Part shown: piece after piece, positions 47,176 through 50,857 of the stretch
Position numbering within the stretch: the first letter of the stretch is position 1
How the letters are laid out: each line of letters begins with the position of its first letter
Notes under the pieces: model-generated
What the model was told of the DNA's origin: nothing
Seen by the model: only the letters and a program-made list of their open reading frames with translations
Databases searched by the model: none
Assembly: GCA_015654635.1 (NCBI GenBank)
Contig: JAATGP010000004.1
Span: forward strand, 186,001-250,000
Direction: 5' to 3'
From: Alphaproteobacteria bacterium
GTDB lineage: Bacteria > Pseudomonadota > Alphaproteobacteria > Micropepsales > Micropepsaceae
Length of the DNA: 64,000 nucleotides
Made by a program: the position numbers and the translations under genes

Positions 47176-47357
47176 TGGATCAACGGGAACAATTTGGCGC
47201 CGGGAAATTGCGCCGAGCGCAGGCACAGTTACGCAATGGTACAAATATAGCGAGCGCGCCCCTGGGCGCGGTGGTACTACATTAGAATTAAATCAAACAG
47301 AGTTGTGCCAATCGCGACGCATCGTTGGTTTTTGCGGCCGCTCATATAGAGAAAAAC

Positions 47358-49721
47358 ATGGCCGATGGTCTTCCTGCCTCTGCCGCCCCAAGGCACGCTC
47401 CATCGAGCGGCGCTGCCTCTGCAACCGGATTGACGAGCGACGAAGCGCAGCGCCGCCTTGCCGCCAATGGAACCAACGCCATCCAAGATGTGGCCCAAAA
47501 ACCGGTCAGGCAAGCCTTGGGGAAACTCTGGGCCCCTGTTCCGTGGATGCTGGAAGCGGCGATCCTGCTGCAATTGGTGCTGGGTGAATACTTTGAAGCG
47601 GGCGCCGTTGCGGTGCTTCTGCTGTTCAATGTGGGCTTGGGATTCTTCCAAGAAGGCCGCGCCCAAGCAACACTCGACGCGTTGAAATCCCGTCTGCCCT
47701 TGACCGCATCGGCGCGGCGCGACGGCACCTGGAAAACACTGCCAGCGGCCCAATTGGTGCAGGGCGATGTGGTCAAGCTGTCGCTCGGTGCCGTGGTCCC
47801 CGCCGACGTGCGGCTGATAGACGGCTCTCTCCTGATCGACCAATCGATGCTGACCGGCGAATCCGTGCCGGTCGAGGCGGCAGCCGGTTTTGCGACTTAT
47901 GCCGGTGCTCTGGTGCGGCGGGGAGAAGCAGTGGCCGAGATCGTCGCGACGGGCACGCGCACGAAATTTGGACGCAGCGCTGAGCTCATCCGTATCGCCC
48001 ATGTCGAAAGCACCGAGCAAAAGGCTATTTTTCGCGTGGTGCGCAATTTGGCTTTGTTCAATGGCGGCATGACCATCTTGCTCACCATCTATGCCATTTA
48101 CCTCGCCCTTCCATTCGCACAGATCGCGCCGTTGGTGCTGGTTGCCGTTCTGGCTTCAATCCCTGTGGCCCTGCCCTCCATGTTCACTCTGGCGGCGACG
48201 GTTGGCGCCCGTGCGGTGGCGCGGCGCGGAGTCTTGCCGACGCGACTTTCGGCACTCGACGAAGCAGCCGAGATGGACGTTCTGTGTGCCGACAAGACCG
48301 GCACATTGACGCGCAACGAACTCGCGGTCACCGCCTGCCGCGCGCTGCCGGGATTCGATGAGGGCCAAGTCTTAGCGCTGGCGGCGCTGGCAAGTTCCGA
48401 CGGCGGCGCCGATCCCTTGGATGCCGCAATCCGCACCGCGTCCGCCAAGGCCAATCCCTCGGCATGGAAACTCGTTACCTTCATACCGTTCGATCCGGCG
48501 CGAAAAATGTCGGAAGCGACAGCGACCGACGCCGATGGCCATCCCTTACGAATCGTCAAAGGCGCCTTGGCCGCCGTCGCCGCGATGGCCGAACCGTCCC
48601 CGAGCGCCACCGCGACGGTCGAAGAGCTTCAAGCCAAAGGGTTTCGCGTGCTCGCGGTGGCGATGGGAGCAGCCATGCCGCTAAAGATTGCAGGTGTCAT
48701 TGCACTGAGCGATCCGCCGCGCGACGATTCCTCAGCGCTCATTGCGCAACTGCATGACCTCGGCGTGCGCGTCGTAATGGTGACCGGCGATGCGGCAGTA
48801 ACGGCGCGCGTGGTTGCGGACGCGGTTGGCATCACCGGGCCAATCTCAGCCACCGTGCCGCTGCCGCGCGACATCCACGCCGAGGACTTTGCGGTCTTTG
48901 CTGGTGTGCTGCCCGAAGACAAATACGCGCTGGTTCAGGCCTTACAGCAAGACGGCCATGTGGTCGGCATGTGCGGTGACGGCGCCAACGATGCGCCCGC
49001 ATTGCGGCAGGCCCAGATGGGCATCGCGGTCTCGACGGCAACCGATGTGGCGAAATCGGCGGCAGGCATTGTGCTGACCGAAGCAGGCCTTGGCGGCATC
49101 GTCGCCACGGTGCAGGAAGGCCGCGCAACCTTCCAGCGCATTCTGACCTATACACTGCGGTCCATCATCCACAAAGTCGTTCAAGTGCTGGTTTTGATGT
49201 GCGGCCTCGTCATCACCGGCGGCGCCATCTTAACGCCTTTGCTGATGGTGCTGATGATGGTGGCCGGTGATTTCCTTGCCATGTCGTCATCCACCGATAA
49301 CGTGCGCGCGTCCCCGAAGCCGAATGTCTGGCGGATCGGCAACCTCACCATTGTGGGTGTCATCATGGGATTCTTCGACCTCGGCTTTTGCATCGCCGTC
49401 CTTGCCACCGGGCATTTCGTGCTCGGTCTTAGCACCCAGGCGCTGCAGACGCTGACGGTCGTAACGCTGGTGTTCAGTGGCCAAGCGGTTTTCTACGTCG
49501 CGCGTGAACGCCGCCACTTGTGGAGTTCGCGGCCTGGGCCGTGGCTCCTCGCGTCATCGGCCGTCGATATCGCGCTGTTCAGCACACTGGCCATCCTCGG
49601 CGTATTGATGACACCCCTGCCGGCGCTGGTCGTGGCCGGTGTGTTCGCCGCTGCGCTCGTTCTGGCGCTCCTGCTCGACATCGTGAAACTCGTGCTCTTC
49701 AGCCGCCTTGCCGTTGCCTGA
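47358..49721 (+). CDS. P-type ATPase, plasma-membrane proton-efflux (P3A) type
   Basis: LTGESVPVEA; VLCADKTGTLTRNEL; MCGDGANDAPALRQAQMGIAVSTATDVAKSAAGIVLTEAGLGGIV; 788 aa from MADGLPAS. Confidence 0.9.
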   Translation: MADGLPASAAPRHAPSSGAASATGLTSDEAQRRLAANGTNAIQDVAQKPVRQALGKLWAPVPWMLEAAILLQLVLGEYFEAGAVAVLLLFNVGLGFFQEGRAQATLDALKSRLPLTASARRDGTWKTLPAAQLVQGDVVKLSLGAVVPADVRLIDGSLLIDQSMLTGESVPVEAAAGFATYAGALVRRGEAVAEIVATGTRTKFGRSAELIRIAHVESTEQKAIFRVVRNLALFNGGMTILLTIYAIYLALPFAQIAPLVLVAVLASIPVALPSMFTLAATVGARAVARRGVLPTRLSALDEAAEMDVLCADKTGTLTRNELAVTACRALPGFDEGQVLALAALASSDGGADPLDAAIRTASAKANPSAWKLVTFIPFDPARKMSEATATDADGHPLRIVKGALAAVAAMAEPSPSATATVEELQAKGFRVLAVAMGAAMPLKIAGVIALSDPPRDDSSALIAQLHDLGVRVVMVTGDAAVTARVVADAVGITGPISATVPLPRDIHAEDFAVFAGVLPEDKYALVQALQQDGHVVGMCGDGANDAPALRQAQMGIAVSTATDVAKSAAGIVLTEAGLGGIVATVQEGRATFQRILTYTLRSIIHKVVQVLVLMCGLVITGGAILTPLLMVLMMVAGDFLAMSSSTDNVRASPKPNVWRIGNLTIVGVIMGFFDLGFCIAVLATGHFVLGLSTQALQTLTVVTLVFSGQAVFYVARERRHLWSSRPGPWLLASSAVDIALFSTLAILGVLMTPLPALVVAGVFAAALVLALLLDIVKLVLFSRLAVA

Positions 49722-49814: not shown

Positions 49815-49853
49815 ATATACGACCTGTATATACTATATGTATAGATCGTATAT
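49815..49853 (+). promoter_or_regulatory. 39-bp near-palindromic operator-like sequence before the ParD-like gene
   Basis: atatacgacctgtatatactatatgtatagatcgtatat: 15 of 19 symmetric pairs match; ends next to the ggag RBS. Confidence 0.7.
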
Positions 49854-49862
49854 GGAGCTTTC

Positions 49863-50072
49863 ATGGGCATTGTGAACATCGATGACGATTTGCACGATCT
49901 GGTGCGTAGGGCGAGCAAAGTATCCTGTCGTTCGATCAATGCGCAGGCCGAGTATTGGATCAAAGTCGGCATGCTCTGCGAGACCAATCCGACACTGACT
50001 TTCTCCGAGATCATCAAGCGCGAGCTTCGTTCCGCAGGCGTTTCGGCGGAGCCATTGGCGTTAGAAGCATGA
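49863..50072 (+). CDS. ParD-like antitoxin family protein
   Basis: MGIVNIDDDLHDLVRRASKVSCRSINAQAEYWIKVGMLCETNPTLTFSEIIKRELRSAG. Confidence 0.85.
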   Translation: MGIVNIDDDLHDLVRRASKVSCRSINAQAEYWIKVGMLCETNPTLTFSEIIKRELRSAGVSAEPLALEA

Positions 50073-50857
50073 CGAAGCAGCCTGAAGAGCTGGCGCTGCT
50101 GGCCGAATCCGGCCGGCTGTTGGCTTGCGTATTTGCGCTTTTGGATGGAACCGCGCTCGCCGGGCTGTCGACCCTTCAGGTCGATACCATGGTTGAGCAC
50201 TTCATCGTCGATGATCTTAAGGCTCGACCCGCGAGCAAGGGCCAATATGGCTATGGTTTTGTGTTGAACTCTTCGGTGAACGCGGTGGTGTGCCACGGCG
50301 TTCCATCGTCATCGAATGTGCTGCGAGACGGCGATATCGTCAATTTCGATATCACGCTTGAGAAGAACGGCTACATCGCCGATTCCAGCAAAACCTATCT
50401 CGTTGGTGCGGTAAAACCCGCCGCGAAGAGACTCGTCCAGACCACCTACGAAGCTCTGTGGATGGGCATAAGGGCGGTTCGCCCAGGGGCGCGGCTCGGA
50501 GACATCGGTTGGGCGATCGAACGCCATGCCAAACGGAATGGCTATTCTGTCGTGCGTGATTATTGCGGTCACGGCATCGGCCGGGAAATGCATGAGGAAC
50601 CGCAGGTTCTGCACTTCGGTAAGCCGGGAACGGGCCTTGCCCTGCGCGAAGGCATGGTTTTTACGATCGAGCCAATGCTCAATCGAGGCCGACGGGATGT
50701 GAGGACGGAGGCTGACGGTTGGACTGTTGTAACGAATGATGGATCGCTTTCCGCACAGTTCGAGCACACCGTTGCCGTGACAGCATCCGGCGTGTCGGTG
50801 CTGACGCTACGCCCCGACGAACGGAACATGATGCGCAAGATGAAGGTTGTAGCCTGA
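50069..50857 (+). CDS. map: Type I methionine aminopeptidase
   Basis: Metal-ligand motifs intact: VCHGVP, NFDIT, ADSSKTYLVG, CGHGIGREMHEEPQVLH, FTIEPMLNRG, LSAQFEHTVAVT; ATGA overlap with the ParD-like stop. Confidence 0.96.
   Translation: MTKQPEELALLAESGRLLACVFALLDGTALAGLSTLQVDTMVEHFIVDDLKARPASKGQYGYGFVLNSSVNAVVCHGVPSSSNVLRDGDIVNFDITLEKNGYIADSSKTYLVGAVKPAAKRLVQTTYEALWMGIRAVRPGARLGDIGWAIERHAKRNGYSVVRDYCGHGIGREMHEEPQVLHFGKPGTGLALREGMVFTIEPMLNRGRRDVRTEADGWTVVTNDGSLSAQFEHTVAVTASGVSVLTLRPDERNMMRKMKVVA

Follow-up and report, generated by a model that had tools for sequence, protein, structure and literature searches.

Why should a gene from an antitoxin family be followed by a gene for methionine aminopeptidase (MetAP)? 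The question is raised by a two-gene locus in the window, the whole stretch of 64,000 nucleotides analyzed here. An earlier note, made from the sequence alone, had recognized a ParD-type gene overlapping a MetAP gene (map) beneath a palindrome, and had proposed regulated N-terminal methionine excision with the MetAP in the position of a toxin. Removal of the initiator methionine is an essential step and is generally regarded as constitutive.

A MetAP gene in the toxin slot of an antitoxin family

The features of the locus are listed in table 1. The ParD-type gene was confirmed with the PF11903 profile (cut-off 23 bits, match over profile positions 1–53 of 73), as was its overlap with the MetAP gene, in which the stop codon of the first gene and the start codon of the second share the four nucleotides ATGA at 50069–50072. 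No ParE/RelE-type toxin gene follows the ParD_like gene within the window, in agreement with the earlier note. The Shine–Dalgarno-like GGAG is located 5 nt upstream of the ParD_like ATG, and the downstream neighbor of the MetAP gene encodes a TPR protein on the opposite strand. A gene for a P-type cation ATPase (47325–49721, same strand) ends 141 nt upstream of the ParD_like gene; this neighborhood is not shared by the other pair loci that were compared. The genome contains a single PF11903 gene, two full map genes and one aminopeptidase-P-like M24 gene. The other full map gene (305 bits) encodes a protein with about 48% identity to the cassette MetAP, and the objection that the locus might hold the only map copy does not apply because two full copies are present.

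Table 1. Features of the ParD_like–MetAP locus, with positions in the window
Feature	Position	Strand	Description
ParD_like (PF11903) gene	49863..50072	+	69 aa, starts Met-Gly-Ile; PF11903 73.9 bits
Type I MetAP gene, clade A	50069..50857	+	262 aa; TIGR00500 285 bits; P1 pocket S/Q/N/M
Putative operator, RTATAY box array	49815..49853		Inverted repeat and conserved boxes in orthologous upstream regions
RTATAY boxes	49815–49820, 49826–49831, overlapping 49828–49833, 49848–49853		One degenerate position between
GGAG, probable ribosome binding site	49854..49857	+	Read from sequence; adjoins the operator end

PF11903 matches were identified in 111 out of 399 genomes of the phylum Pseudomonadota. A MetAP gene is located directly downstream and on the same strand at all 51 pair loci obtained from the phylum survey and a search for relatives, and a scan of named genomes gave the same result for 80 out of 80 loci, 74 of which overlap by 4 nt. 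Overall, these 131 loci (51 surveyed and 80 named, with some genomes occurring in both sets) bear out the suggestion that such pairs recur in the Proteobacteria. The named loci belong to the alpha-, beta- and gammaproteobacteria with one exception, a proteobacterial-looking pair on a contig labelled Bacillus subtilis (L225, JAHREJ010000008.1) that is probably a contamination. A natural ParD–MetAP fusion was not found among the 51 surveyed pairs, where the ParD frame stops before or near the MetAP start, and E. coli genomes contained no near match to a pair from a Klebsiella plasmid (the best rows of a distant search were canonical map). A second full map gene is present in 50 out of 51 pair genomes.

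The linked MetAPs comprise a clade A, to which the MetAP in the window belongs, and a clade B, which provides the partner in 14 of the 51 surveyed pairs. A profile of the clade A MetAPs returned 35 matches that score at least 438 bits, while all other scores stay at or below 357 bits, and a ParD_like gene adjoins 34 of these 35. The exception is an intact orphan clade A MetAP in a 100%-complete genome (L252, G337 contig 1, about 1600813–1601571), in which neither a ParD_like gene anywhere in the genome nor a paired box array upstream of the MetAP gene was found.

A tree of the ParD_like proteins splits the MetAP-linked sequences from the other PF11903 sequences (SH-aLRT 99), and a MetAP gene is never found near the latter. 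All four downstream proteins of this sister branch that were scanned against Pfam are ParE-like toxins (PF15781). The MetAP thus occupies the old toxin slot of the PF11903 family, as the earlier note had supposed, since the sister branch carries PF15781 toxins in the same position wherever this was checked against Pfam, and never a MetAP. Two distant PF11903 genes (L064 and L098) are followed by genes for proteins with a GPNGAGKST motif which by eye look like zeta-type kinases and would add a third partner type to the two already seen with PF11903.

The upstream box array and the regulator

The palindrome described earlier, with 15 out of 19 symmetric pairs and abutting the ribosome binding site, is present. 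Its arms of 18 nt are 83% complementary, and when the upstream region was shuffled 40 times with its dinucleotides preserved, no shuffle equaled its inverted-repeat score. The palindromic hexamer RTATAY occurs upstream of the pairs at an average density of 2.5 per 100 bp; the density falls to 0.40 when these regions are dinucleotide-shuffled and is 0.014 in 100-bp windows taken elsewhere in the loci. The main spacing between the hexamers is 11 bp (138 cases). Two RTATAY boxes 11 bp apart were found in 96 of the 125 distinct upstream sequences among the 131 loci and in none of 3,848 control windows, which supports the palindrome as a probable conserved operator. The 39-bp palindrome represents one instance of this conserved array. 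The consensus, approximately ATATAYGAWTCRTATAYG, is found whether the regulator has Lys5 or Asn5, and the 11-bp pair is absent upstream of toxin-linked ParD_like genes (0 out of 38). A consensus scan for a sigma-70-like promoter gave no match. In the 3.9-Mb genome the cassette is the sole site of the exact paired box, and a wider regulon was rejected on this count. An 11-bp RTATAY pair was also seen in a genome of the same genus without a ParD_like gene (L259, G034 C40:54126–54142), by chance or as a relic.

The array has the pattern of a cooperative ribbon–helix–helix autorepressor, and we infer from the conservation of the operator that ParD_like probably represses its own operon. The AlphaFold model of ParD_like (pLDDT 87.6) contains helices at residues 8–21, 25–41 and 47–57, in line with such a fold, and a fold search of the PDB with this model returned weak matches (E of at least 0.4) that are mostly ribbon–helix–helix proteins (FitA, Arc, TacA, and PutA).

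The translation of the regulator begins exactly with Met-Gly in all 131 loci, and Ile is the third residue in nearly all of them. ATG, GTG and TTG start codons and all four glycine codons at position 2 occur; the TTG- or GTG-start loci (L052, L054, and the VGI/LGI loci) retain Gly2, so that initiator methionine and glycine are kept whatever the start codon. In the toxin-linked branch the N-termini carry variable short extensions, typically of two to four residues (e.g., MAV, MPV, and MATA), which are not found in the MetAP-linked branch. MetAP accepts Met-Gly as a substrate sequence, and the N-terminal strand of the ribbon–helix–helix fold touches DNA, which together suggest that methionine excision may feed back on the binding of the operator. 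The conservation of Gly2 may equally be explained by structure.

The accessory MetAP and its P1 pocket

The second protein matches the type I MetAP profile TIGR00500 (cut-off 171 bits) and PF00557 (161.5 bits). The statement that it keeps all recognizable metal ligands proved correct: D97, D108, H171, E204, and E235 (E. coli numbering here and below) are present together with the catalytic H79 and H178, and the same residues are kept in 57 out of 57 linked MetAPs. Based on the profile and the complete set of catalytic residues it is counted as a variant of type I MetAP, and its AlphaFold model has a pLDDT of 93.2.

The P1 pocket of the E. coli enzyme is formed by C59, Y62, Y65, C70, F177, and W221, and the P1′ site by C78, Y168, E204, M206, and Q233 (Table 2 of PMC10724148). 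All 42 clade A proteins, including the one in the window, carry S59, Q62, N70, and M177, so that four of the six P1 residues are changed (C59S, Y62Q, C70N, and F177M). The canonical copies carry Y62 and C70 in 40 out of 40 cases and F or Y at position 177. The cysteine at position 70, replaced by Asn in 42 out of 42 clade A proteins and kept in 40 out of 40 canonical copies, has been described as present in all MetAP1 (E. coli C70, Mycobacterium tuberculosis C105; PMC12028322). At the P1′ site, C78, E204, M206, and Q233 are kept in all proteins and Y168 is likewise among the unchanged residues. The clade B pocket (N59, Y62, mostly C70, and Y177) is near-canonical, and the altered pocket is not general to all pairs because clade B keeps Y62 and mostly C70.

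A redesign of E. coli MetAP residues 56–70 and neighboring residues including 177 switched binding from Met to Leu (PMC3945839). Since the natural changes coincide with the redesigned positions, it is reasonable to predict that P1 preference or sensitivity to inhibitors is altered. With an unchanged P1′ site, the cassette MetAP should still cleave methionine before small second residues. Its activity could be lowered by the pocket changes, and a review reports that active-site cysteine mutants of E. coli or human MetAP1 are less active (PMC12028322).

In the MetAP tree, clade A is separate and clade B is nested among the canonical copies (one protein with a very long branch, L146, was left out of the second tree). 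The tree prefers two lineages over a single origin of the linked MetAPs; an AU test does not reject a single origin (p = 0.10), and two captures are therefore not claimed.

The pocket bears on whether the second gene might be an ordinary dosage backup, a MetAP of normal specificity that is autoregulated against overload and whose pocket changes reflect neutral drift. Bacteria with two MetAPs are known, such as B. subtilis with map and yflG, the latter under weak YvoA repression (PMC1266368), and the pockets of the clade B partners would fit such a role. The same four substitutions are, however, fixed in 42 out of 42 clade A proteins that range down to 58% identity to the MetAP in the window, with P1′ untouched, which makes neutral drift improbable and a mere backup unlikely.

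Mobility, probable role, and relation to known systems

DNA similarity between the locus and others begins at the operator region and breaks off where map ends, even within the genus, where the gene is present in 4 out of 37 genomes. Compared with Mesorhizobium-type genomes, the accessory MetAP is 87–88% identical and the canonical MetAP 64–65%. Relatives are carried by 161 plasmid records, and the pair was found in all six of those that were opened. One of these six is a conjugative plasmid of Klebsiella and another an OXA-58 plasmid of Acinetobacter; the cassette also occurs on Salmonella plasmids. On the 24.7-kb Acinetobacter plasmid (L102, NZ_MK323040.1) the pair is located between the ISAba825/OXA-58 region and a recombinase gene; toxin–antitoxin modules are common in such a setting. 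Four IMG/VR contigs carry the pair, and a phage origin was rejected because the phage collection gave no match. Judged by these sequence comparisons, the cassette is mobile and moves horizontally.

The locus is therefore best explained, with reasonable though limited confidence, as a mobile, autorepressed two-gene cassette for a specialized accessory MetAP that serves specialized or conditional methionine excision. The regulated excision proposed in the earlier note remains the natural reading of the layout. The ParD_like protein would descend from a family whose other branch consists of antitoxins with ParE-like toxins, and would act mainly as the repressor of its own operon, binding cooperatively to the boxes at 49815–49853 and keeping the operon low. 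The second gene would add an active accessory MetAP beside the housekeeping enzyme, with the P1 pocket that holds the methionine side chain rebuilt and without both of its cysteines. The benefit may be N-terminal methionine excision in conditions or on substrates that defeat the standard enzyme, and candidate conditions are a modified N-terminal methionine, attack of an electrophile or oxidant on Cys70, or a pocket inhibitor.

A true toxin–antitoxin module, in which excess or deregulated MetAP would be harmful and the C-terminal tail of ParD_like would bind and neutralize it, is decidedly improbable. The gene order and overlap match those of the PF11903–PF15781 pairs of the sister branch, but the second gene is a MetAP outside the known toxin families, a housekeeping-type enzyme with an intact catalytic site and with a housekeeping map alongside it in all but one of the surveyed pair genomes. 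The mobility and plasmid carriage of the pair would suit such a module; the orphan clade A MetAP in a complete genome would not. The C-terminal length of ParD_like follows the MetAP clade (66–74 aa with clade A and 78–91 aa with clade B) and the pairwise distances of the two proteins correlate (r = 0.81, mirror-tree), a correlation that is expected from linkage alone. Furthermore, plasmid-supplied YflG, the second MetAP of B. subtilis, rescued map-deficient strains (PMC1266368). Of the earlier interpretation, the recurrence of the pair, its toxin-slot position and the operator stood, and the toxin role was not supported. That interpretation did not include the boxes spaced 11 bp apart, the changes in the P1 pocket, the constant Met-Gly at the start of the regulator or the fact that the cassette is mobile.

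The reading as an accessory MetAP cassette can be extended to a regulator that senses N-terminal methionine excision, turning an antitoxin family into a feedback gauge of protein processing. When MetAP is blocked or overloaded, newly made repressor would retain its methionine and lose operator binding, and derepression would supply a MetAP whose rebuilt, cysteine-free P1 pocket escapes the block; we regard this extension as speculative and very doubtful. A selfish addiction or hitchhiking cassette, kept by transfer and self-stabilization with little benefit from the MetAP, would fit the patchy distribution in the genus, the sharp borders and the plasmid carriage but is highly improbable, since the strictly conserved catalytic residues and pocket indicate selection on enzyme function. 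A defense system was rejected, as neither protein matched any of the PADLOC models.

No paper describing the ParD_like–MetAP pair or its function was found in the limited literature collection that was searched, and databases already annotate the two genes as "ParD-like family protein" and "map". The accessory-MetAP cassette is real, widespread, mobile, and apparently autoregulated, and has arisen in an antitoxin family whose toxin slot is taken by a housekeeping-type enzyme. A mobile, apparently tightly regulated and pocket-altered MetAP, which plasmids of Klebsiella, Salmonella, and Acinetobacter also carry, suggests conditional or alternative N-terminal processing and would matter for the use of MetAP as a target of antibacterials. 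The operator, the pocket signature and the pairing lead to directly testable predictions.

Among known systems, the PF11903–PF15781 type II toxin–antitoxin modules resemble the cassette in that the antitoxin is of the same family and the two genes, in the same order and on one strand, overlap tightly. They differ in that the partner is a toxin instead of a MetAP, the regulators form a separate branch, the N-terminus is extended where the MetAP-linked branch has the exact Met-Gly start, and the upstream regions lack the 11-bp box pairs. MetJ, Arc, and CopG are small ribbon–helix–helix repressors that recognize short palindromic boxes at fixed spacing in their own promoter region. The cassette has evenly spaced palindromic boxes upstream, as they do, and a small protein that would probably share their fold, but its boxes are RTATAY with an 11-bp period, its predicted target is a MetAP, and no co-repressor is known. 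YflG of B. subtilis is likewise a second, functional MetAP with low expression beside an essential map and with a regulator implicated; it differs in being weakly regulated from elsewhere by YvoA, in having no antitoxin-type partner and in being described as chromosomal (PMC1266368). Finally, Rv0367c–Rv0366c of Mycobacterium also combines a ParD_like protein with a partner other than ParE, which in that case is a kinase-type zeta toxin and not an aminopeptidase (PMC6504116, PMC6362051).
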